DNA of 64,000 nt from Paralichthys olivaceus (Eukaryota > Chordata > Actinopteri > Pleuronectiformes > Paralichthyidae): assembly GCF_024713975.1 (NCBI RefSeq), contig NC_091115.1, positions 175,001-239,000 of the forward strand, in the 5' to 3' direction. Made by a program: the position numbers and the translations under genes. The first letter of the stretch is position 1. Every line of letters starts with the position of its first letter. Below are positions 4,132 to 62,600 of the stretch, piece by piece. The notes below the pieces were generated by a model. That model was given only the letters and a program-made list of their open reading frames with translations. It searched no databases and was not told the origin of the DNA.

Positions 4132-5358
4132 CTATTTGTGGCGGCTGCCTCTCCTCTTCATGGCGGCCGTACACTGAGGACAGTACCACTTCCCCTTGGG
4201 AGCCTCGGTCAGTCCGACGCAGCCGTAGTGGAACCACTCGATTGGACACTGAGCAGAAAGTAAAGATTAATAAACTGATTGGATAAAATGTCTATTAATC
4301 AAATGTCAGTCAACCTACGACTCAATGTGTTCAGTCACTGATGGAAACAGGTTCAATTTGATTTTCTTCTTCCAGTTTGTTAAACACAAAATAAATTAAT
4401 ATTAAACTTTAACCTTTAAGAAATAACATGACACTTACATCTGTGTTATCGCAGCCGACCATTTCTCCATAAGAAACCTGGAAAAGGACAAACAACAGTT
4501 TTACTGTTTTTACTTATTTAAATTATTCTCATGTTGGGTTTATCAGATGTTCTGGTGGTCAAACGTCACAACAATTAACCAGCAACACAAACTCCGGATG
4601 TTATGTTCGATTAAAAAGTAAAGAAGTTTAACTGTGTTCCAGGGACGTCAGGATTAACAGATTTGACCATAACCGTGGTTTCATAACCGTAAGAATTGTA
4701 CAAACTAAGATATCCAAATATAATGTCCTGCCTCGCTCTCCCTCTTTGAGTGTGCGCTTGTTTGAGTGTGCGAGCCACTGAAACGTTGAGAAGAGGGAAG
4801 TAACTTATTTCCACCAACGCTGATCAAAAAACTACATCAGAAGAGTTCAATGGTAGAAATCCTTGTGTGTGTGTGTCTGTCTGTCTGTCTCTGTGTGTCT
4901 GTCTGTCTGTCTCTGTGTGTCTGTCTGTCTGTCTGTCTGTCTCTGTGTGTCTGTCTGTCTGTCTCTGTGTGTCTGTCTGTCTGTCTGTCTGTCTCTGTGT
5001 GTCTGTCTGTCTGTCTCTGTGTGTGTGTGTCTGTCTGTCTGTCTCTGTGTGTGTGTCTGTCTGTCTGTCTCTGTGTGTCTGTCTGTCTGTCTCTGTGTGT
5101 GTGTGTCTGTCTGTCTGTCTCTGTGTGTGTGTCTGTCTGTCTGTCTCTGTGTGTCTGTCTGTCTGTCTCTGTGTGTGTGTGTCTGTCTGTCTGTCTCTGT
5201 GTGTCTGTCTGTCTGTCTGTCTCTGTGTGTGCGTGTGTGTGTCTGTCTGTCTGTCTGTCTCTGTGTGTCTGGCTGTCTCTGTGTGTGTGTGTGTGTGTCT
5301 GTCTGTCTCTGTGTGTGTGTCTGTCTGTCTGTCTGTCTCTGTGTGTCTGTCTGTCTGT

Positions 5359-5403
<45 letters not shown>

Positions 5404-5829
5404 TGTCTGTCTGTCTGTCTCTGTGTGTGTGTCTGTCTGTCTGTCTGTGTGTGTGCGTGTGTGTGTCTGTCTCTGTGTGTGTGTGTCTGTCTGTCTGTCT
5501 GTCTCTGTGTGTGTGTCTGTCTGTCTGTCTCTGTGTGTGCGTGTGTGTGTCTGTCTGTCTGTCTCTGTGTGTGTGTGTGTCTGTCTGTCTGTCTGTCTCT
5601 GTGTGTGTGTGTGTCTGTCTGTCTGTCTCTGTGTGTGCGTGTGTGTGTCTGTCTCTGTGTGTGTGTGTCTGTCTGTCTGTCTGTCTCTGTGTGTCTGTCT
5701 GTCTCTGTGTGTGTGTCTGTCTGTCTGTCTCTGTGTGTGTGTGTGTGTGTGTGTGTCTGTCTGTCTGTCTCTGTGTGTGTGTGTCTGTCTGTCTGTCTCT
5801 CTCTGTGTGTGTCTGTCTCTCTGTGTGTG

Positions 5830-5860
<31 letters not shown>

Positions 5861-8800
5861 GTGTGTGTCTGTCTGTCTCTGTGTGTGTGTGTGTGTCTGT
5901 CTGTCTGTCTCTCTGTGTGTGTGTCTGTCTGTCTCTCTGTGTGTGTCTGTCTCTCTCTCTCTGTGTGTCTGTCTGTCTCTCTGTGTGTGTCTGTCTGTCT
6001 CTCTGTGTGTGTCTGTCTCTCTCTCTCTCTGTGTGTGTGTGTACCTGGTTACAGATGCAGTATCGGGGCTCGTTGGGGTCGTAGGTCCAGTCCACCTGAC
6101 TGTTGGCTTCAGCCTCAGGTAGCGCTGAGGCCTGCTGGGAAAGCTCCTGGGCCAGCGCTGACGATGACGAGCACGATGACAGAGAGGAAGAGGAGGACGA
6201 TGAAGACGACTGATGATTAGAAGACTTGATGCTGCTTCTGGAAAACAGAAGACTCAGATTTAAAGGTCATTTGAATAGAGACATGTTTCTGTGTCTTATA
6301 GATCTGAACCTGCAGGATGACTTCAACACATGCTGATGAAAAGTACAGGTGGGGGTGTGGAGGTCTTACTTGGACTTGCGCCCCCTGGAGTCAGAGGCGG
6401 TGGTGGGGGTGAGGGTCTGGGTGAGAGTGGAGGCCAGAGCAGAGGAGGAGTATCCAGTGCTGTCCCGGGACAGAGAGAACTCTCTGCCGAGCTGGAAGTC
6501 GTTGTTCTTGATGGCTTCGTAACTCGCTTTGAGACTGGACGTCCTCCTGCCCTCCTTCATCTGGAACCACAATCGCACGTCAACACAGAGACAGACACAG
6601 GGACAAGTCTTCACAGCAGCACTGTCTTAATAACACATATTACAAAGGACATAGCGTTGGACCCGGTCCAACCCAGAAGCACTCTTGTGATATCAGCTGA
6701 TGTAACCTCTGAGGAGAACGGTACTCAACCTGTGCTGTCGCCTGAACAGCCTGAGCAGCTGCCATGGTGATGGCCCCGGCTCCGGCCCCAGGCCCCGCAG
6801 GCAGGGAGCTCAGGTTGTAAGAGGCCAGAGGCTGAGACGAGTTCACACTGTACACGTTGTTGGTGGATGAGGACGTGCTGTTGGTGCGACAGCCTGCAGG
6901 GGGCAGAGTGAACACGTCAAATGAGAGAACTGCTATTTTTATTATGATGTATTGTCCTTTCACGTGTTTGTCAGAGATCAGTGTAAAGGTCAGAGGTCAA
7001 GTGGAAGTCAGGTATTACCTGGCGTGTTTTCTTTTGAAGCGTCTGACGTGAGGGTCGACAGCAGAGCTTCAGATTTAAACTTCTTCTCTGGAACGTGCTC
7101 TGTCGTGTGATGAGTCGGAGCGCTGTACTTCCTCTCTGCTCCCAAACACAGCATACATGTGAAGAGCATGTTAAATCAGTGTCATGTGGCTGATCCCTGA
7201 TCAGATTGATTATGTCAGTATTGATCAGCAGACTCAGGACGGCTGGTACTTACTCTCAGTGGTGGTGTGAGAGTGGACGTGATGGTTGTTGACTGGTTGA
7301 GACGGACTGTCCATCTCTAACGACCCTGAGAAGAAAAAAAACATCGAGTTAAACAACTTCTGCTTCCTCGTGTTTATCAGTTAAGTTTGACATCAATCAT
7401 TTGTGAGTCTGTGAGTGACGCACGTCTCTCCAGGATCTCAGTGATGCCGGCGTTGTCTGCCTCCAGCTCCATCTTGAACTTGGCCAGTTCCTGGTCCAGT
7501 TTGCGCAGATGACGGTCGACCTGAAGGAACATGAACCAAGAGCATCACTTAAATAAGATCTACTCCCTCTGTGACAGCATGATTGACAGGTTCAACTTCC
7601 TCTGTTGCACAGATGTTTCTAGAGACCACATCTGTATCATCATCATCATCATGTTTCCTGTGGCTGAATAAACGGAACATGTACTAATGTTGTGTGAAAT
7701 GTATAATGTTCTGTAATAGAGACGTCACGATATGAAAATTTGGTGCCACGATTATTGTCAGAGGAAATATCAGTTTCACGATTTATAGTTTAGGAGGAAA
7801 AAGATACGGAACAAACAATATATCTTGAATATATATAACTAAGATGTTTTACTTAGTTGCCTTATTGTGGAAGGTTGGTCAGTGAATTTGTGTTTCCTGT
7901 CATCATAAGCAGTATATCTGTATGGGACTTTTATTGTGAAGGGTCACAGACGGAAGTTGTTCTGTTTTGGGAGCGAGGTGTTGACTAGTTTTCGTATTTT
8001 CCTGGTTCACGCCTCATTCTTCATATTCTGAAGGACACCAAAGTTAGATATCGTACTTTTTACAATTATGAAATCGTGACGTTATCAAACCACGGTTATC
8101 GTAAAATCAGTTAATCTTGACATCCCTGTTCTGTGATAACCATGTTTGTGTGACGTGTTGGTTGTCTACCTCAGAATGACTCATCTTTAAGCATCTCCTA
8201 CTCACCAGATCATAAATCTGATTGGCCAGCTGAACTTTTTCATCTGCATCTTCCAGAGCTTTGTAATAATCCTGAAACAACAACAAAGTGATCGCACACG
8301 AGTTTTAATGAAAACATCACCATTCACTGCAGATACATAATCAATGATCAGCTGACTGATCACCATGACAGAAGTCGTATATGAAGAAACAGAATTACCA
8401 CACGAAGGTTGTATGCCTCTGCCAAAAAGTGCAGTTTGTGTGTACATACTTCTACGTACTTTTTTCTTCTAGATTCATATAAAGGTCACTGTAACCTCTG
8501 ACAACTGAAACATAATCACTTCATCTTGGAGTCCAAGTGACAACTGATCAAAAGATTGGATATCCATCTTCTGTCATGATGCCCTGGTCACTTCTTCGAT
8601 AACCAAAATGCTCCCACGCTGCAGATTTAAAGCTCCAGTGTAGGATTCAGGTGAAAGGATCTATTGTCAGAAATTTAATGTAGAATCATCCTCATGATGT
8701 TTTCACTAGTTCGTTTCATCTAAATTGTATGAATTGTAGTTTTCTTTACCCCAGAAAAGGCCCTTTATATTTAAATACTTTATATTTACATGGAGGGGAC

Positions 8801-11529
8801 ACTCTCTACAGAGGCCGCCATGTTTTTTCATTAGTCCAGACTGGACAGACTAAAACCTTTTGAGTTTTTATAACAACTGAAGCTGCCACAGGTTCTTCTT
8901 CATGTTTGGAAGGAGAGGGGGGAGGGGTGTTCAGCTGCAACATGACACTTCAACACTAGATGTCACTAAATTCCTCACACTGTAACTTAAGGCATTTTAT
9001 TGCGTTGCTTCTGCCATTTTTAAAGCATGTCTCTATCAACCAACGTTCATGTAAGTGGCCTGCACACACAAACAAAAGTCTGTTTCTGTTCGTCCAGACT
9101 AAAACACAACCTGAGTTTTCAATCTAAAAGGAAGCCAGGATGAGGCCACAATAACCATAGTTCAGCAGAAGAGTACGATCTAAACATCTGTTGAACAAGT
9201 TTACTTAGGGTCTGGTTTCAGTCGTGTTTTCTGACCTTTTTAATGACCTCCATCTGTTCCTCTCTCCACTCAGGTTTGTTCTTCTTTGCGTTGACAAAGA
9301 ACTCGATCACTTTGTGCTCCAGCTGATCGGTGGCGTCTGTAACCGGAAGAGAAGGAAAAACAACAAGCTCTCAGAACTTCAACCATACACACAGAGTTAC
9401 TGTGAGTTCTCTTCAACAACACAATGATCTGTAATCATCAGCCTGTGAAAACACTAGGAACGTTCCTGTCTGGTCAGCAGCTCCTCACTGATTGGTCTGA
9501 TTTTGTGACATCATTGTGGATATTGCATACTATCTATGTGTCAATAAAGTGCAGCGGGAATATTTCACAGGTTGATGCCACATTAAAACTGATAATGATG
9601 ATTTGAATATCACAATAATCACCACGACACCTTGTCATAGCTCGTTCCTGTTGTTTGTGATTCTACATTAAATCTGTTGTTTTATGACTTCATTAAAAAC
9701 GATCTCCTACTTTTCACCTGTTTTAGTTCCACACGTGTTCAGATGTGGCAGATTGAACATTTGATTAAAGACTACGACTGAAAATCAATCTGACAACGTG
9801 ACATGTCCTGAAAATAAATAAATAAAAACAATTTGGTTTGGTTCAGAATCTAAAATCACACCCTGACATTAAATGTGACAAAATGTGTAACAGTGAAAAT
9901 AAAGCTCAGTTTCACAGGACACGTGTAAACATGTGTGTGTATACTGCATGTACTGTGTGTGTGTATACTGCATGTACTGTGTGTATACTGCATGTACTGT
10001 GTGTATACTATATGTACAGTGTGTGTGTATACTGTATGTACTGTGTGTACAGTGTGTGTATACTGCATGTACTGTGTGTATACTGCATGTACTGTGTGTA
10101 TACTGCATGTACTGTGTGTATACTATATGTACAGTGTGTGTGTATACTGTATGTACTGTGTGTATACTATATGTACAGTGTGTGTATACTGTATGTACTG
10201 TGTGTATACTATATGTACAGTGTGTGTATACTGCATGTACTGTATGTGCAGTGTGTGTGTATACTGCATGTACTGTGTGTATACTATATGTACAGTGTGT
10301 GTGTATACTGTATGTACTGTGTGTACAGTGTGTGTATACTGCATGTACTGTGTGTATACTATATGTACAGTGTGTGTGTATACTGTATGTACAGTGTGTG
10401 TATACTGCATGTACTGTGTGTGTATACTGTATGTACTGTGTGTATACTGCATGTACTGTGTGTATACTGCATGTACTGTGTGTATACTATATGTACAGTG
10501 TGTGTGTATACTGTATGTACTGTGTGTACAGTGTGTGTATACTGCATGTACTGTGTGTGTGTATACTGTATGTACAGTGTGTGTATACTGCATGTACTGT
10601 GTGTGTATACTGTATGTACAGTGTGTGTATATACTGCATGTACTGTGTGTCTACTATATGTACAGTGTGTGTATACTGTATGTACAGTGTGTGTATACTG
10701 CATGTACTGTGTGTGTATACTGTATGTACAGTGTGTGTATATACTGCATGTACTGTGTGTATACTATATGTACAGTGTGTGTGTATACTGCATGTACTGT
10801 GTGTACAGTGTGTGTATACTGCATGTACTGTGTGTATACTATATGTAAAGTGTGTGTATACTATATGTACTGTGTGTGTATACTGTATGTACAGTGTGTG
10901 TATATACTGCATGCACTGTGTGTACAGTGTGTGTATACTGCATGTACTGTGTGTATACTATATGTACAGTGTGTGTATACTGTATGTGCAGTGTGTGTGT
11001 ATACTGCATGTACAGTGTGTGTATACTGCATGTACTGTGTGTGTGTACATTGTGTGTACAGTGTGTATACCGTATGTGTCTCTCTATGCACTGTGTATGT
11101 ACATTATGTGTACTGTCTGTGTGTACAGTGTGTATACTGTATGTGTACTGTGTGTGTACTGTGTGTGTACTGTGTGTGTCTCTCTATGCACTGTGTGTGT
11201 GTACATTGTGTGTACAGTGTGTGTGTTCTGTATGTGTTTAATGTGTGTGAGCATTGTGTGTGTTCTGTGTGTACTTTGTGTAACATACTCTGAACCTGCA
11301 GGTCCATCTCCCTCATTTCCGTAAACCTGTCGCGGAGATCCATGGGAAGCTGCTCGATCACTGCCAGGAGAAGAACAAGCCGTTACGTGCTAATGCTGCT
11401 ATGCTAACGGCCGGGGCGGCACAGGCCGGAAAACACCGCACATTAAACGCAGAAAACGCACAAACAGCCCCCCCACCGCAGAGTCCTGGTCCCATACTCA
11501 CTCTCCAGGTAATCCTCCAGGTACAACAT
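4132..11529 (-). CDS. ing3: Inhibitor of growth protein 3, 12 coding exons, 418 aa
   Basis: ING3 is the PHD-finger subunit of the TIP60/NuA4 histone acetyltransferase complex; the family PHD finger reads H3K4me3 in the nucleus. Exons (minus): 11502-11529, 11289-11360, 9236-9336, 8206-8271, 7424-7520, 7254-7325, 7019-7135, 6730-6893, 6370-6560, 6045-6237, 4439-4477, 4132-4248. Every junction keeps frame with GT-AG sites. The spliced frame is 418 aa, the length I recall for human ING3. The N-terminus, starting MLYLEDYLE, forms the ING coiled-coil domain. The middle is Ser-rich with a [12 protein letters not shown] segment. The PHD finger begins at RYCICNQ and continues through [11 protein letters not shown] and WYCPQC to a basic end, RRGSRHK. 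The start is the first ATG and overlaps a GCCATGTT motif. Introns 2 and 10 hold kilobase repeat arrays, and introns 3 and 4 hold MITEs. Confidence 0.97.
4864..6042. repeat. 1.18-kb compound (TCTG)n/(TG)n microsatellite in ing3 intron 10
   Basis: Blocks of (tctg)3-5 alternate with (tg)3-15 almost without interruption. On the ing3 sense strand this is a CA/CAGA tract that starts 2 nt after the exon 10 splice junction. It supports 400-codon frames on both strands, all of them artefacts of low complexity. Confidence 0.97.
7717..8128. mobile_element. hAT-like MITE in ing3 intron 4
   Basis: A 412-bp non-coding element. The left end tagagacgtcacgatatga is an imperfect inverted copy of the right end, which read inward starts cagggatgtcaagat. 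It is flanked by 8-bp direct repeats with one mismatch, TTCTGTAA at 7709-7716 and TTCTGTGA at 8129-8136. An 8-bp target duplication with CAGGG-type ends fits the hAT superfamily. It ends 78 bp from exon 4. Confidence 0.7.
8627..8990. mobile_element. TTAA-flanked MITE in ing3 intron 3
   Basis: A 364-bp element is bounded by TTAA at each end. The left terminus (agctccagtgtaggattc) and the inverted right terminus (gttacagtgtgaggaattta) form imperfect terminal inverted repeats of about 28 bp. The internal motif ctagatgtcactaaa next to the right end is familiar from a dispersed teleost repeat. The TTAA ends would suit a piggyBac-type non-autonomous element; that family call is inference. Confidence 0.6.
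9930..11285. repeat. 1.35-kb minisatellite in ing3 intron 2 (GTGTGTATACTGCATGTACT units)
   Basis: Units of about 20-22 bp are built from gtgtgtatac, tgcatgtact and variants (tatatgtaca). The last 200 bp degenerate into gtgtgtact and gtgtacatt. The array stops only a few bases beyond the exon 2 donor at 11288. The Cys/Val/Tyr frames across it are artefacts. Confidence 0.95.
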
Positions 11530-41900: not shown

Positions 41901-44900
41901 GTTCAGTCGTTTCATCTTGAATAAATTGTGTTATAATAGTAAGATTTTGTTTCTGCTGTTTTAAAGGCACAAATTATAAATAAAATATATATCATGAATT
42001 TAATGATCGGACTCTTTACTCTTATTAGTTTGGTTGTTTTTCAGAGAAGATTCAGATCAGATCACTGTGATGAACATTAGAGTTGGTTTTAAAATAAAAC
42101 TCAAACTCTGACTGTTTAAAGGAAATCAAACCTGAACGACTTGATTCTCACCAGGTTCCTGAACCACATAGGCGACGCCACAGGATCCGTCCTTCCTGTC
42201 TTCAAACGTGATCTCAGCTTTACTGGGTCCTTCAACAGCGATGGACAAACCTCCAGCTCCAGCTTCTCTGGTCCAGATACTGAACTCAGCTGAAACACAT
42301 TTAACCTCCGTCTTTATGTTCATGACACTTATTTTAACACATTATCCACCGTCTGCATCTAAGCCAACATAGAGAAGAAAGACAAAGTGGAGATGAATAG
42401 AAGACGAGATGTCTCCAGCTCACCTGGGATCCCGGCCACTCCTCGGTCCAGTCCGGTTCCTCCCGCTCGGACCTTGTGGGCCCCTCCCTCTCCCAGGGGC
42501 CCCACAGTGAACTGGAAGGGGCTCCCAGGAACATGTTGGCCCCGGTACTTAACGTTAACGGTGTGAGGGCCCATCTCCTGAGGGATGAACCGGACGCTGT
42601 AGGTGCTGTCTTCTCCTCTAATGATCTCCGCCTCCTCCGTCTTTCCTGCGGGACTCGTCACCTGAGCCGTCATTTCCTGGTTACCTGCCTCACCTGAGGG
42701 GGGAGGAGCCACAAAGAGAGACATGGGTCAGAAGACATGTTCGAAGCGACAGGACTCACACACTGGTTAATATCTTAAAGTGCAGTTCACAACGTCCATG
42801 AATAATAATAATAAACTTTATTTATAAAGCACCTTTCATACATAACATGCAAAATAAAATCAGAGAGGTGAAATAATAAAACACGTCAGCAATGAAACAA
42901 AGACTTTAAAATCTAAAAAATGTGAAGGGTATAAAAAGTGAGAAGATGAGATCAGATGAAGGAAAAGAGTCCAAGTACAAAATAGAATAAAAATAGGGAA
43001 TTAAATATATAAACTATAGATGTGTACAAATATATAAAATATAAGCTCTGGAATGAAAACATGAATGTGAAAACTAACAGAATCTTATATGATGAGGAAC
43101 CGTCCATGTTGGTTCAGAGGAAACAGAGGTCAGAGGTCACGCTGAGTTCAGGATGAACTGAAACAATCGTGGAGATAAAAGCTGGATTAAACGTGTCTCC
43201 GTTTCAGGATCTAACTTTTCAAACTGAGTATTCCAGGATAAAAACTTTTCTTTGTCTCAGACACAGTTTACACTCGTAAAGACGTTTTCAGAAACACATG
43301 TTCATTTCTCGTATTTGAGGAATGTTGCCTCCTCATTGGTCGACACACGTTTTTATGTATCGTCATGTTTCTTCTGCTGCAGCTGAAACTTTAGTGACGT
43401 TTACATCATGTGATTCTTTCTTCACTGAATCTGTTTCCTCTGAAACATTTAATTCTATTTGACAAGTTTTTAATCAACAACACATCAGATGAGAGAAAAT
43501 CAAACATGTTAAAATCACATGTTAATAAACCTGCATCAACAACATGTTAACGTGAGAAACGTTTCTACATGCAACACACACACTCACTCACACACTCACT
43601 CACTCACACACACACACACACACACTCACTCACACACTCACACACACACACACTCACACACACACACACACACACACCGTCCTGCAGTGGCGGTCTGCTG
43701 CCGCTGAACCCGCTCAGACTCTCGCGTCCCAGGAAGTCTCCGAACACGTCTCTGAAGGGGTCTCTTCCAACCTGCGTGCTCTCCTCCACACGGACCTCCC
43801 TCTTTGTCTCTCCTCCTCGGGTTTTGCTGATCTCCGTCCTCTCGGTGCGAGTGTACGTGTGACTGCTGCGGGTGAACGTCTGCGTCAGATGCTCCTGGTT
43901 CGACACCATCTGAAACCAGTTCCCTGTGACCAGCAGGAGGCAGCGTCGAGGAAACGAGGGGCAAACAGAAGGAGGTGAAGAGGAGGAAGAGATGGAGTGC
44001 ACAGGTTACAGATAGGAAGAGGAGGTTGATGTCACAGCTCACCTGGTATTTTCAGGTTGAGGTCACAGGTGCTGCCGACGGTGGCGATGGAGGACGCCTG
44101 GCGTTTCCTGGTGATGCTCTCCTTCATCCGCCCCTCACCAAACATCTTCACTGTGAACGGACTTCCTGTCGGGAAAGTTCACACTTCACCTGTCAATCAA
44201 AGTTCTCATGTCCGGAAAATAAACAAGGATTTCAAACTGAATCTGAGGAGAAATATTTCAATGAAGAAAAGTTTGAAGAACTCAAAAAGTTGAGTTTAAA
44301 CCAACGTCAACCTGGAAACAGAGAAAGTTGAAGCTTCTTTGTAAATTACACAGAAGTGACACCGGTACGTTTCCATGGAGACGTCATCGCTCCGTCTGTA
44401 CCTGGAACGTGTTGATCTGCGAACTTGATGTTGATGATGTAGTTTCCAGGTTCCGTGGGACAGTAGGTGACTTTACAGGTTCCGTCCTCCACGTCCTCAC
44501 AGTTAATGTCCACTTTACTGGGACCCTCGATGGACAGACCCAGACCTCCGTAACCTGCGAGACACAGAAGAAGAAAATGACTGACAGCTCCAGTGAACCT
44601 TGGACCAGTGGACGTGAGCAAACATCTGGAACAAGGTTTGACTGGTCACCTGCGTTCCTGGTGTCCACGATGAACTCGGACACCTCGAAGGTGTGTCCCT
44701 CCAGCAGCCCCTGACCGAAGACCTTCACCTTACTGGCGTCTCCGATCTCAGACTGACCCACCATGATCTTAAAGGGGCTGTTGGTCACATGTTTCCCGTT
44801 CTTCTTCACGCTGACCACATGTTCGCCCACTTCCTTTGGCGTGAACGAGATCCCTGCAGGAGAAAATCAAATGCACGAAGAGTCTTGAAAAGTTCCGAAT

Positions 44901-50900: not shown

Positions 50901-53900
50901 GGGACCGCTGGCTCGAACTTTACTGGCATCGTGAGCCGGTAAAGTCTTGATCTTGAATGGACTGAGAGGAGACATTTGAGACATTAGACCTTGACCATGA
51001 AGACGAAGAAGACGGAATCACAAATTGATCTGTGCAGTACTGACCTGCGAGGAACCTCCTGGTCAGCGTACTTTACACACACCGTGTACGGGCCATCGTT
51101 GGCAGGAGTGTAGTTCACCGTGTGAGTTCCGTCACCGTTGTCGCTGATGCTGATGGGTTCGGTCACACCTGAGGAGATCAGTCATTGAGGCTGAGGTCTG
51201 AGTCCATGGACGCATCTCTCAGGAATCAGAGGAAGAAGAACCAGTATGCCGTTCATGGTCTCACCTGTCGGACCGTAGAGCTGAACCTCCAGCGGAGCAA
51301 TGCCAGCCTTGCTGCTGTCGACAGAGAACGTCTGAGGGACGTGAGCTCTGACTCCACTTCCCAGTCCAGGACCTGAACATCTCACCTTACTGGGATCCAC
51401 CAGCTCTCGCACCGGGACCCTGAAAGGACTTCCTGTGACACCAACATTCAGTTGAGTTTCACCCTGCTGAACTTTTGAAGACCTAAATTCTGGATTTAAT
51501 GAAGTGGATCCGTCACCTGGGATAGGGAGACCCCCGAACGTGATGTTGACGTCATACTCTCCTGGAGTGAAGGGGATGTACTCCACGCTGCAGCTGCCGT
51601 CTTTGTTGTCTTTACACGACATCTTTGCCTCAGACGGTCCTTCAATGGCCAAACCCAGACCCCCGGTGCCGGCTCCCCTGAGGAACAATCAGACGATGAG
51701 AAACCAGACGGAGACCGAAGCAGTCGGACATCTTCAGATGTGTGTCATGTTGGACGTAGCCAAAAGGTGAACTGACCTGGTCTCTACAGTGAAACGGTTC
51801 GGTTTGTTGACCAGTCCTTCCTCCAGACCTGGACCGTATGCTCGCACTCGACTGGGATCACAACCCTCCGTCACCGTCACTCTGAACGGACTCTTCGGCA
51901 GAGAGACGTCGTCAAACAGAACCTCAATCAGATGTAAACCTGACGACAGAAAGAGCCGAGAGAAGAATCACATCCTCTTCTCCAGATGTGTCACCTGACA
52001 CTTGGACGCCACACAGACAGGAGGTGGGGTCGTGATGTCATGTGAATTAGAGAAATATGACCGGAGGGACTACATATCCCATCAGGCCGTGTCCGACTCT
52101 AAGTTCAAGTTCAAGTCACAGGACGTTAAAATAAGAACCAGAGTCGTGGTGTTAGATATAAAAAACCGTGACAGCGCCACCTGTTGTCCAAATACATAAT
52201 CATTTTGTTTGGCACCTTATGGCTGAGTTCGTACGTAAATAACACAAGAAAACGTTTTTATCCAAACCAGGTGTTGTATGTTCAAATGAACGTGACGTCA
52301 CAGGTGACGCTGTTGTAACTGAGGTTACTCATCGTAACCTCAGTTCTCAGCTGACGTCAGTGAGCAGCTGTTGCTCAAAGATTCCTGAGAATCATTCAGG
52401 TTTAGAACCAACAACCTTTCACACACACACACACAATGTGTGGTTTCTGTGTGTGTGACACTGACAGAAGACCACACGCCTTTCTGAGTATTCCTGTCCC
52501 ACAATGCACTGGGCTCCAGCATGTCACAGGTTACTATCAGTGGAAAACCATCTGTCTGCAGCTATTTATACCCAGAGTTCATCACTGCTGCTCTCGACTC
52601 GTTAGAGACTCGACTCACTTCACTTTCACTCAAACACTTTCATATAATAATCACAAAATTCACATTATAAAATAATAAAGTGAACTTCACTCAGTTTGAT
52701 TATCGCTTTTAAACTTTTAAACATGAGGATTTTTTTTAAACCACGAACACTTTGTCTCTTTACTGTGACTGTTTAAAACCCAGCAGTTTAACGACGTGTT
52801 GCTCTGGAAGAAACACATCTATAAACCAGCAGCAGCTCTGCAACCTCCTGCAAACACAGAAGTGTGTGAGGCTGCTCACCGTCCTCATAGGGCGTGTACT
52901 CCACCCTGTACGTCCCGTCGCCCTTGTCTGTGATGTAGGCATCTGTGTTGCCGCCTAACGGGTTGGAAATGCAGGTTTTGATTTGGCTGCCACTTTTGTA
53001 GAGAGACCGAGCATCGACGATGAAATGTGTGGTCACTTCCCTCAGGACGCCTGCAGGCGAGAAACAAATCAAACTCTCATTAGTGAGGATGCAGCAGATG
53101 TTTATCAGGAAACAGGAAGCAGTCGTCATGTTATTCAGCCTCCGTGCAGACTTTTCATGAATTAGTTTTAAAAGAGAAGGAAACATAATGAGGAAAGTTT
53201 AAATGAGCTGCAGACTTTATTACGTGTCAGTAAATAAACCAATGAGAGCTGACGTCAACAAACAGACGTGGAAACTTTGGACCAGAGACTAAAAACATGA
53301 AGCTCGCTCTACCAACTTTAATATTTACCACAACATAAAAATAGGTTTTTATAAATGTTCATAGACTCCTGTGTCTGTAACCTGGGTTCTGACCACTGGT
53401 GGTTTCTATAGAAAATGTCTCTTCTCACTTTATAACGTCAGTAAACTTTGTCCTCAGGAGTTAATTCTAACCCCAAGATGGCGCTGGAGAAAACGGCGGC
53501 TCACAAACCAACGGGTGGCGTCATGGTGGGTCAAACGTTTCATTAATTAAGGAGGAATCTATAAAACCATCATGTTGGTAAAGTTTCAGTTGGATAATTT
53601 AGTTTCTAATGAGCACATTTAAATTTCCCGAAAAAGTAAAAGTGAACAGATCTGATGACGTTTGAATGATTCAGGTTCCCTGTAGCTCTGAACAGTTTCT
53701 TCTCACCTCTGGGTTCGACTCCAGGTCCGTAGACCTTGACTCCGCTGGTGTCGACAGCCGGTTCCACCTGCAGGCGGACAGGGAACTTGGGCACGGCGTG
53801 TCCTCCATATTTGATGGTGATGGTGTACATGCCCTGGAACTGTGGGATGTAGGTGATGGAGTACGTCCCGTCGCTGTTGTTCTGGACGTGAACTTCAGCT

Positions 53901-56306: not shown

Positions 56307-59300
56307 GAGATAGCTGACCCTGTCCAGCCTCGCTGCAGTCCACGGTGAAGTACGTCGGCTCGTTGGCTTTCAGTCCCGTCTTCTCCACACCTGGACCGTA
56401 AACCTTCACGTTCTCCGGATGGCTGCCTTCACCGATCGTCACCTGGTCCGCGACATAACGTTTTATATGTATATATATTTCTTCTACATTTGTATTTGCT
56501 TTGATTATCTTAGTTTCAGAACAGTTTCTGTAATTTTAATTAAAATCATTAGCTCATCAACAAATAAACAAAAACAGATGAAGAAACATTTTATATTTTT
56601 ACATAATTTCATTTAAATCTGAGCCTGCGGAGAAACTCAGGGTTCTGACCTGGGTCCTCTTTGGTTCCGTCTCTGTGTCAAAATAAACATCGATAATTAT
56701 AATTTATATTGATATGTGGATGATGTACAACTGATCTATGAAATGATCCTTTAAATATGAAATATAACAGATTCCAGTTATTATCAGGATTTTTAAAAAT
56801 CAGTTTCGTTGTGTTTTAGTGAACGAGGCTTCGTACCCTGAACGGGCTGTTGGGCACGTTGACTTCGCCCCAGGTGACGATGATGGTGTGTTTGATGGGT
56901 TTGGTGGGAATATAAACACAGAGGAAGGTGCTGTCCTCGTTGTCTGTGATCTGTATGTCGATGGGGAAACCCTCGGCGTCCTGGACACACAAACACATTC
57001 GTCACGTCGCTGCATCACCACAGAACAACCATGTTTGATTAAAACCAGCTGAAGGTCACCTGAGCATAGAGCTTCAGTTCTCCTCGTCCGGCTCCGTGAG
57101 TATCGATGGTGAAATCAGCAGGTTTGTTGACGATGCAGCCGAGAGGCTCCAGACCAGGACCGTAACATTTCACCTGAGAACGTTCAACACGTGATTCACA
57201 GTAAATATACACGTGTGTGTTCAATCATCTGAAAGGTTGCGGTCAAACCTTCTCTGGGAAGACGTCGTTGACAGCAGAAACGATGTGAGCCATGAACGGA
57301 CTGTCCTTGATGTCCTCGTCGTCACATATGACGTGGACGGCAAAGTCGCCAGGTTCAGTTGGCCAATAACGAACGTCACATGATCCGTCACCTTTATCGT
57401 CACACTCGATCTTAGCTTGAGACGGGCCCTCGATGGAGAAACCTGAACAAAACACCGTGACTCAAACATCTAACTTCGAAATGAAATCTCAGCTCATATT
57501 TGCTGATGACACTGGTGTTTATCTGTTTCCCTGGAATAATGTGAAACTACAAACAACAGATTTCCAACTGCCTCAATATTCTGTGACAAAACAGAAAGTG
57601 TGTTTTACTTTCATTCCAAACTGTGCGGTTCCATCAGGAGTCCCGTTCAGTGTTCCCTTTAGTCATTTGTGTGCCGATGTTTCGTCTACACGTACCCAGC
57701 GTTCCCACCTCCGTCCCGATGGCCTCCACCACAAAGTCCGCACTCTTCCCGACCATTCCGGTCTCCAGACCCGGGCCCCAGGCCCTCACCTTCTGAGGCC
57801 CCGCCTCCTCACTCACCTGCACTTCAAACGGACTGAAAACAAAATGTGAAACATTATTAAACATTTAAAGATTTAACTGATTTAACTGAAAACTGTTTGT
57901 GCTTCATCCGCCGTTAGACATAAAGATATAAAATATATTTTAATACCAAAAACTATAAGTAAGTGCCAAACTGGTACTGTGCTTCATGAAAAGCTGCAGA
58001 ATATTATTCTTCACAATCTGAACCTCTGGAGTTCCTCAAGACTCCATCCCTTATTATTCAGTGTTTACATGGAGACGATCAGTAAATCACTAAAACATTT
58101 AGTTTAAACAGGATCTGCTGCTGAGTCGGTGGCTCAGGTGATAGAGTCTCACCTGCGTGGGATGCTGTGTCCTCCCCAGGTGATGGTGACGATGTATTTT
58201 CCCGTCACGATGGGATAATAATTACACTCAAACACACCGTTCTCCATCTCCAGGACCTTCACCGGCTCCTCCAGGCCGTCTGAGTTCAACATCAAAATAT
58301 CACTTTGACGGCAATGGTCAACAAATCAAAACTGATCAGTGAGCGGTGGCGTCTTACTTGGTCCCTTCACGGTGACCTCGAGTTCACCGCTGCCGCCTCC
58401 TTTAGTGTAAACTTTAAAATCTGCCACTTCTTTCACCCTCAGGCCTTTCGGCTGCAGACCGCGGCCCGACGCTCTGCAGGCGTTCGGGTTACAGGCTGTT
58501 GGACCAATCAGGAGGAGACGCAGCACACTGGTTAGACTGGAGGGGACGTTTACATGAAACTAACAAAAAGACCAAATCTTCAGGAGAAAACTTCAAACTG
58601 ATTCTAACTTCGTGAGCTGATGTTAAGAAGTGTAACTAAAACTCAATAAGATCAGATTTCAACAGTTTGAACTAACTTTCATGTTTAGCTTTTAAAAACC
58701 TGAGGTTCATTAAGTTTTACATTTTAGACTTTAACACACAAAAACAGTAAATGTTGGAATAATTCAGTTTCTCCAGACATTATTTTTGTATCAGCGTTTA
58801 CAAAATACAAAAATAAACATATATTTACTGACTCATATATTAATTTAGGGGATTTTATAGAATAATTTCATGATTTAATATTTAATCTGAATGTGTCATT
58901 AAGTAAAAAAACACACAAGACTGTGTTTAAATGCAAAATCTAAAGCTGAATTATTGAAACACTAAACTAACAACAGACAATAAATAAATAACAATCCTGA
59001 ATCCAGACTTAATCCTGAATTCAGTGTAAAAGTCCAGATTGAGATCATCAATGTAACAGTGAGTTTGTGTTAGTGAGCTGAGAGAAGCAGGTTTTACTGA
59101 GGCTGAAAGGAAAGAGCAGCAAAGATGAAATGAGATGAAGTGAGTCCAAAGGAGGAGGAGGAGGAAGAGGAGGAGGAGGAGGAAGAGGAGGAGGAGGAGG
59201 AGGAAGTTCAGAACTGAATCAAACCATCAAATTAAAATAAATAACATGTTCAGATGATAACAGTTTCACAAGGAGGCTGGTGTTAGATGGAGGAAGAAGA

Positions 59301-59563
59301 GTCACTGAAGCTGAAGCAGGTGATGAAGAACATTTCAATATATGAAATCATTATTCACATGTTAAGGTCACATACGGTTTAATTAGAGGTCACATGCTAA
59401 GTTAATTAAGAAAACAATAAGCCTTTTATAAAGGGGCGGGGCCTTAAAACAAAAACTGATAACTTATTCATATTCAAAATAAATGTTCAGAATCTATTCA
59501 GTGACGTCTTTGTTCAAATCTACAGAGCGTGCATGTGCGCAGGAGCGTGCACGTCCCCCCCCC

Positions 59564-59610
<47 letters not shown>

Positions 59611-62600
59611 GATGATAAAAACATAAACCTGTTTTTATAGAATGATGTCATCAGAGTTTCATGTTTCATGAATTATTGAATAACTGAAAGTGAATCTGAA
59701 CATTATGAAATATAACGTCTGAAATATTAAATTTAAAACCTGAAAGTTTGATCAGATTCACTTTTGTTGATCCTGATAAAAACGTAGGTGGAGTCTCGGT
59801 TCTCCGTCTCTTAGCAACCATTAAAAAGCTCTAACAACAGAGTTGATGACGTAGTATCAGCTAGAACTTGTAAAATACATATATTTGTACTCAAATTCAT
59901 AAACGTACCTAATCAGAATATTTGCAGATAAATGATTTCTCAACAGACGACCATGTTTAAAAACCTGATCATCAGCGTCGCTCATGTTTCTGAGCTGAAG
60001 CTTTCATGCGTCTTTATCCCTCAGAGAGGCTCCGCCCCCCCGCGGACTAGCAGTGAAGACGAAGCAGCTGCTGCACATGCTACAAACAGGAAACGCAGAG
60101 AGGCAGAGGCAGGATGTTTGAGTTCAGGTGGAAGGAAACCAGGTGAGCCTCCAGCCCCAGCCCCGCCCTCAACCCCGCCCCCTGGCCTCTACTAACTTGG
60201 TCGCCTGGGTTTGGGCGGTGTTGGAGGGGGGGCTCTCCGTGTCTTGTCTGAGGGAGGGGTGCGAGTGGACTGAGGTACCATCAGCACCGGAGAGCCGGCA
60301 GGTGGGACACTCTGTGGAACTGCAGGAGGGAACAACAGTGATGACACATGTGGACATAAGAGGACAGACACCTCAGCACCGGCAGGTGGCGCTGCAGCAA
60401 GACCAGAACCAGGAAGACAATCCAGACTCAACTCCAGAGTCAGATTCACACAAAGTAAATGAGATCCTCAGTTAATGACAAGAAACAAGTCAACAGTCAA
60501 ATCCAGAGTCATGAAAACTTCCAGGTGGAGTTCCTGAAAACGTTTCCTCTCCGAGTCTGAAGCTTCCTGTTTGTTCATGTTTCATCTCATCTGTTAGTTT
60601 TAGTTTCACTTTGTGATTCAGAGACTAAAGAATTCTGTCTCACGTACGTCCTGTCGTCACCACCTACCTGGGCGGAGTCTACCTATACTTGACTCTGATT
60701 GGTTTGTAGACGGAGTCTGATGTGGGCGTGTTGTAGTAGTCTTTCTGTCTGAATGGAGGAAATGAAGCGCTTTGGTTGCCATGGTAACACCATGATGTAT
60801 CACTAGTAGCATCAGCACCTTCAGGCGCAGTACTCCAAAGTACTACAGTACTGCACAGTACTACAGTACTCCACAGTACCACAGTACTACACAGTACTAC
60901 AGTACTCCAGTACTACACAGTACTCCAGTACTCCAGTACTACACAGTACTACAGTACTACAGTACTCCAGTACTCCACAGTACCACAGTACTACACAGTA
61001 CTACAGTACTCCAGTACCACACAGTACTACAGTACTACAGTACTCCAGTACTACAGTACTACACAGTACTACAGTACTACAGTACTACAGTACTCCAGTA
61101 CTACACAGTACTACAGTACTCCACAGTACCACAGTACTACAGTACTACAGTACTACAGTACTCCAGTACTACACAGTACTACAGTACTCCACAGTACCAC
61201 AGTACTGCACAGTACTACAGTACTCCACAGTACTACAGTACTACACAGTACTACAGTACTCCAGTACTACACAGTACTACAGTACTCCACAGTACCACAG
61301 TACTACAGTACTACAGTACTCCAGTACTACACAGTACCACAGTACTACACAGTACTACAGTACTCCAGTACCACACAGTACTACAGTACTCCACACTAGT
61401 TCAAATGCACCAAATGATCGTCCAAACATATCGTCGGAGGTGAAGACTGAAGTAATCAAAACAAGCTTCTGTCTCGAGTCAGGATTAGATGATCCAGACT
61501 CTCAACCTTAATCCTGACTGAGAGAACAAAGTCAACAGACGAGTACTGAATCAAAGAGAACCAAAGATCAAAGATCCTTTATCAAAACTTTACGTCAAAC
61601 TAAAGTCGATGCCGTCTGCACCTCTGCCGACCAATGAGGGAGGAGACATAGAAACCAATCAAACACAAGAACTGAGGCGCGACGATCCAGTCAGATCCAG
61701 ACTGAGCTTCATGTTTCATACGATCATTGAAAACCAGGATGTTACAGGAGGGGGGGGGGTCAACTTCAATCTTCTGAGTATTAGATGATGAAAAGAAAAT
61801 CTGAACGTCTCAGACATAAAATAAAAACTGTTTTTGAATGTGACCTGATAAAATCCTCCTGGTTTCAGTTTCAACATCAGAACCTTCAGACTCCTGCAGA
61901 ACTGAACCGGCGCTCTGTGACACCTACCCTCAGAAATGTGGACAGTGAAAGGGCTTGTGGGAATCTGCTGCCCGGCAAAGGTCACGTAGACGGTGTGCGC
62001 CCCCTCCAGGATGGGAACATAGGTACAGCGGAAAATACTGTCCCCTTTGTTTTCCAGGACAATCTCCACTGTGTCCCTGCGACCGTTAGAGTCCACAATG
62101 ATGACGCCCACGTCTCCGGCTCCCGCCCCTGGAGGACAGACAATGAGACATTTACACTTTGTCCTTGTTTGTTTCTCAGTTGAATCGAAGTCGTTTAAAG
62201 CAACAGTTCAGTTCGAGTGTTTACCTGCTGTGTAAATATCGAAGTACGTCGGCTTGTTGGCCACGTTCCCCATCGTCTGCAGCCCCGGCCCGCGGGCCTG
62301 GACTCTGCTCGGGTCGCCCATCGCCTTGGAAACGTTCACTATGAAGGGACTTCTATCAATGTCCTGCCCAGCGAACAGCACCTTCACCTGGTCAGAGAGG
62401 GAATCACAGGCCTGTCAGGTTTTTTTCTTACAGACGTAAAACGAGTTTGATCCTGAATCAAAATGACGTTCGATCAGATGATGTTAAATCTTCTTCTGTG
62501 TTTCTCACCTTATGAAGCCCCTCCACTTTGGGCAGGTAGACCACAGAGTAGGTTCTGTTCTTGTCGTTGTTGGGGATGACTCGAGCCTGACGGACACAGA

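Follow-up and report, generated by a model that had tools for sequence, protein, structure and literature searches.

A candidate proline-rich cassette exon between repeats Ig2 and Ig3 in two filamin C genes of Paralichthys olivaceus

The filamin C locus and its relatives in the genome

The stretch of DNA analysed here (the window) comprises 64,000 nucleotides, C23:175001-239000 of a 588-Mb genome in 25 contigs, and carries a filamin gene on its minus strand. A Pfam search of the genome returned 108 matches to PF00630, the majority of which fall into four clusters located on C23 (the window gene), C7, C6 and C2. In the window gene, the PF00630 matches are spread along its length, and an actin-binding domain is followed by filamin repeats. 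The first exon of the actin-binding domain lies outside the window, at about C23:245358-245762 and ~6.3 kb upstream of the first exon of the window, so that the gene is incomplete in the window. Starting at the actin-binding domain and ending with the last repeat, the exons of the C23 and C7 genes are collinear one by one. The motif of the Ig20 insert, which we take to be a mark of filamin C, is present in both of these genes (in the window, part of the insert is encoded by the exon at 43691..43942 on the minus strand, which is shared with C7) and was not found in the C2 and C6 loci, where the sole motif match, a TERTE on the opposite strand of C2, is unrelated. Since the insert is common to C23 and C7 and was not found in C2 or C6, the window gene is called filamin C (flnc), and by its sequence the C7 gene is a filamin C as well. 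The two flnc genes presumably descend from the teleost genome duplication. A search for filamin relatives elsewhere yielded 26 pattern stretches in a viral contig set and 129 in a genome contig set, none of which was confirmed.

Several other features of the window were noted. An in-frame open stretch of 84 nt (GTGAC...GTCACAG; 51433-51516, minus strand) interrupts an exon of an Ig repeat between PIPG and SPFRVPV; it occurs at a single place in the genome and is missing from the C7 gene, and it resembles a short intron, or else an insert of 28 residues, in one flnc gene of the two. The long open frames at 4800-6250 and 9850-11400 are translations of simple repeats (YTHSTCS-like among them) and belong to large minisatellite arrays, not to genes.

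The Ig2/Ig3 intron and its two candidate exons

The exon coding for the end of Ig2 (61928..62128, minus strand, donor AGG|gtaggt) and the exon coding for the start of Ig3 (58358..58495, minus strand, donor CAA|gtaaga) are separated by an intron of 3,432 nt, with the donor at 61928 and the acceptor at 58495. A preliminary description of the sequence had taken this for the largest flnc intron, which was not confirmed, as ~6.3 kb separate the exon ending near C23:245358 from the exon at window position 64047. When the flanking exons are joined directly, the junction reads HISE-A-CNPNAC, which is the normal filamin Ig2-Ig3 boundary; in the solved human filamin A Ig3-5 chains 4m9p and 6ew1, the match to Ig3 begins at chain residue 3 (CNPSACRA).

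Two candidate exons had been proposed within this intron, segment A (60683-60748, 66 nt) and segment B (60197-60319, 123 nt), both on the minus strand. Their places and their lengths in multiples of three were confirmed, and the reading frame bears out that both are open, are entered in phase 1 and are left in phase 1. The accompanying statement that their splice signals are good is true of the acceptors but not of the donors: when scored against a vertebrate splice-site matrix, ~1% of the AGs of the gene region score as high as the acceptors of A and B alike, whereas 15% of all GTs reach the score of A's donor and 9% that of B's. The donor of B is weak, an equally low score being found for 4 of 39 donors, the latter approximated near the conserved exon ends of the window gene. 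In dinucleotide shuffles made from the 2,833 intron bases outside the tandem array described below, at least one open phase-1-to-1 candidate equalling A appeared in 33 of 100 and at least one equalling B in 14 of 100. Neither A nor B stands out when judged by splice score and frame, and splice scores on their own were rejected as exon evidence because a shuffled intron attains them. It is conservation in the sister gene, and not its splice score, by which B exceeds chance. A scan for splicing-regulator motifs found TGCATG in neither the C23 nor the C7 intron and, among the other motifs, nothing usable in common.

Segment A is open and in phase; it lies within a dispersed repeat at 60545..61452 (ends approximate), which was delimited by blastn with 23 fetched copies, among the matches listed, and which also holds a TAGTACTG-type tandem array (60828..61390) with units of 8, 18 or 26 nt. 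A far stronger donor, CAG|gtaggt, is found at 60668, 15 nt downstream of the one proposed for A, and extends the segment to 81 nt (60668..60748, minus strand). The 26-residue peptide of this longer version has 88 genome matches at E <=10, including 87 non-self matches, 26 of them at E <= 0.001. At the DNA level, 40 of 430 first-look candidates for the 291 bases around A were scored, and all 40 (39 of them non-self) match at 75-86% and overlap at least part of A. In C7, only ~165 nt separate the Ig2 exon from the homologue of B described below, which leaves no room for A. Segment A, being neither single-copy nor conserved in the relative, was therefore rejected as a conserved exon or a part of a linker; at most it is an exonised repeat, and it may have been exonised in this species. 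As for the placement of the repeat, 32 of the 40 listed copies, the window's own among them, are on contigs of known length, and 26 of these 32 are no more than 2 Mb away from an end.

A homologue of segment B in the second flnc gene

Segment B (60197..60319, minus strand) combines an acceptor, a donor, an open frame and phases compatible with those of its neighbours, and it has a homologous exon in the Ig2/Ig3 intron of the C7 flnc gene; only these two places were returned by the genome searches described below. The C7 exon (L013:4968-5084, minus strand, 117 nt, phase 1 to 1) is bounded by the acceptor tcatttctag|CTCTGCC and the donor CCAA|gttagt, encodes ALPVAPPMGAPLHIIPQSVRTPPGVKGGKGPPPPKPGRP and joins into Ig3 as T-T-NPNAC. 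The donor, CAA|gttagt, is identical in the two exons. The alignment of the two peptides has the same residue at 22 of 39 positions (21 of 38 when the codon completed by the next exon is left aside, and 20 of 38 in a MAFFT alignment). The first ~10 residues of B are poorly conserved, and the best-kept parts are PQSxRTPP and PPKPxRP. No match to the B peptide was found among Pfam families or solved PDB chains.

The homology was examined by several comparisons, made with one relative, the second flnc gene on C7, which is a paralogue in the same genome. When the four filamin loci were searched by tblastn with B (its 40 full codons), one convincing non-self match emerged, located in C7 between the Ig2 and Ig3 exons; its E-value in this locus-level search, 1.6e-10, was obtained without low-complexity filtering or composition correction, under which unrelated proline-rich stretches reach 6e-4. 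The BLOSUM62 local score of the two peptides is 107. Shuffling the C7 peptide 20,000 times never gave as much (best 77), and in a set of 310 candidate exons drawn from the four filamin loci, 39 is the highest score of any exon that overlaps neither B nor its homologue. No B-like match was found in the corresponding C6 intron (~2.0 kb), and the C2 intron is only ~0.12 kb long. In six-frame searches of the 588-Mb genome, the B peptide has a single non-self hit, the C7 place (E 0.057), which is the one intron where a homologue had been predicted, and the C7 peptide likewise returns B and nothing else besides itself (E 0.96); these genome-wide E-values are weak when taken alone, and the case rests on position, phase and donor.

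The differences between the two exons fall mainly at the third codon position. They number 12, 10 and 24 at the first, second and third codon positions (one-sided binomial P for the third-position excess 0.006), the gaps are multiples of three, and the frame is kept in both copies. The dN/dS ratio, which the preliminary description had recommended computing, is ~0.35 for B (0.40/1.16) as compared with ~0.10 (0.195/1.87) for the Ig2 exon. When the exons are aligned locally as DNA together with their flanks, the best alignment starts inside the exon and ends at intron base +7; for the rest of the downstream intron, the comparison of C23 with C7 gives a score of 15, no better than that of 50 shuffles (mean 12.7, best 15). 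The preliminary description had named a lack of conserved frame and splice sites in related fish as a refuting result; in the C7 gene, such conservation was found for B, with a homologous exon in the same intron, the same phases and the identical donor, but not for A. Taken together, B is very probably a real, conserved coding exon of fish filamin C, as judged from sequence comparison.

Interpretation of segment B

It appears likely that B is a coding exon of flnc in both copies and that its likeliest use is that of a cassette exon providing a proline-rich linker of ~40 residues between Ig2 and Ig3. Cassette use is favoured because B, with phase 1 at both ends, is symmetric, because leaving it out keeps the frame intact, and because its weak donor is identical in the two copies. 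The preliminary description had joined A and B into a linker of 63 residues rich in Ser, Thr and Pro; since A is a dispersed repeat for which C7 has no room, the supported linker is one of ~41 residues, the proline-rich half with its SH3-like core, without the Ser/Thr-rich half.

Other readings of the locus were weighed against this one. B might serve as an alternative last exon, left unspliced at 60197, which would give a short filamin C made of the actin-binding domain, Ig1, Ig2 and a proline-rich tail ending in ...PRRPS, the conserved AGTTAG then being a Ser codon and a stop and not a donor. Such a protein is possible because, when the donor is unused, the frame of each gene continues as ...RPS into a stop codon; moreover, ATTAAA is found downstream at window position 59383 and at L013:4598 in C7, and passages of PMC3143143 describe short C. 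elegans filamins such as FLN-2B, in which two repeats accompany an actin-binding domain. However, neither gene contains AATAAA between B and the exon that follows, whose phase the donor fits in each of them, and the G at +5 and the T at +6 of the donor are conserved too, and this use of B is considered unlikely. The weakness of that donor could also mean that neither gene splices B any longer, B being either a relic of an exon in their common ancestor or a stretch of non-coding, regulatory sequence that has been conserved, but the kept frame, the gaps in threes, the third-position excess and the identical donor make this a distinctly unlikely explanation.

That A and B are both exons of one linker is conceivable insofar as the acceptor of A is strong, its frame is open and a strong donor is available at 60668, so that A could be an exonised repeat in this gene; nevertheless, the dispersed nature of A and the short distance between the Ig2 exon and the B homologue in C7 render the joint linker very improbable. 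Least credible is the notion that B is a chance exon-like sequence of the intron: a B-like candidate does turn up in 14 of 100 shuffled introns, yet this view is contradicted by the homologue of B that the sister gene carries in the corresponding intron, and hardly any weight is given to it.

If B is the cassette exon that we favour, its inclusion would change the junction from HISE-A-CNPNAC to HISE-[VPQSV...PPKPRRP]-T-CNPNAC with the frame unchanged. Inclusion or skipping could depend on cell type or stage, as in the hinge-1 exon of human FLNC. The added peptide, in which 14 of 41 residues are proline, is probably flexible, to judge from this composition, and when included it would uncouple the actin-binding end and Ig1-2 from Ig3 onwards. 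A core that fits the SH3-ligand consensus PxxPx[K/R] occurs as PPKPRR in the window and as PPKPGR in C7, and the included linker could offer a short SH3-type ligand, PPKPxRP, to adaptors of the Z-disc or costamere. It is from the sequence that we infer the splicing of B into mRNA, its regulated inclusion and the binding of SH3 domains. More tentatively, and with a good deal of doubt, teleost muscle filamin may be envisaged to possess a second switchable hinge in rod 1, encoded by a cassette older than the split of the flnc genes, the disordered, SH3-docking linker of which would tune stiffness and the recruitment of adaptors at Z-discs or costameres.

Known filamin features offer partial parallels. 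Exon 32 of human FLNC (hinge 1) is described in passages of PMC7216277 as a skipped linker exon, which the main muscle isoform lacks and other isoforms contain. Like B, it is an in-frame exon coding for a flexible linker between two filamin repeats, although hinge 1 lies between Ig15 and Ig16 and B between Ig2 and Ig3 in rod 1, and skipping is documented for hinge 1 whereas it is predicted for B. According to the same passages (PMC7216277), the Ig20 insert of filamin C, 82 residues long, is a docking site for muscle partners, myotilin among them; this filamin C-specific addition, found here in both flnc genes, sits inside a repeat, whereas B would stand exactly between two repeats. Nebulette, through its SH3 domain, and CAP (CAP/ponsin) are reported to bind filamin C in the relevant parts of PMC10017460 and PMC2777869, respectively. 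Both are SH3-containing proteins of Z-discs or costameres and plausible partners of the PPKPxRP core, although these reports of filamin C binding do not concern the B linker. A linker exon between Ig2 and Ig3 was not found described in the open-access papers searched, and exon B may already be present in automatic annotation.

Descriptions of filamin usually mention two hinges. Cassette linkers between filamin repeats are known, and the place of this one between Ig2 and Ig3 is apparently undescribed in the papers searched; if spliced, B would constitute a third interdomain linker, situated near the actin-binding end. The intron in which it lies would hold an ancient exon together with a repeat-derived look-alike, which the reading of the sequence alone cannot separate. 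Muscle filamin is the protein behind the human filaminopathies, and fish or isoforms with and without B would make it possible to probe the role of rod-1 flexibility in this protein.
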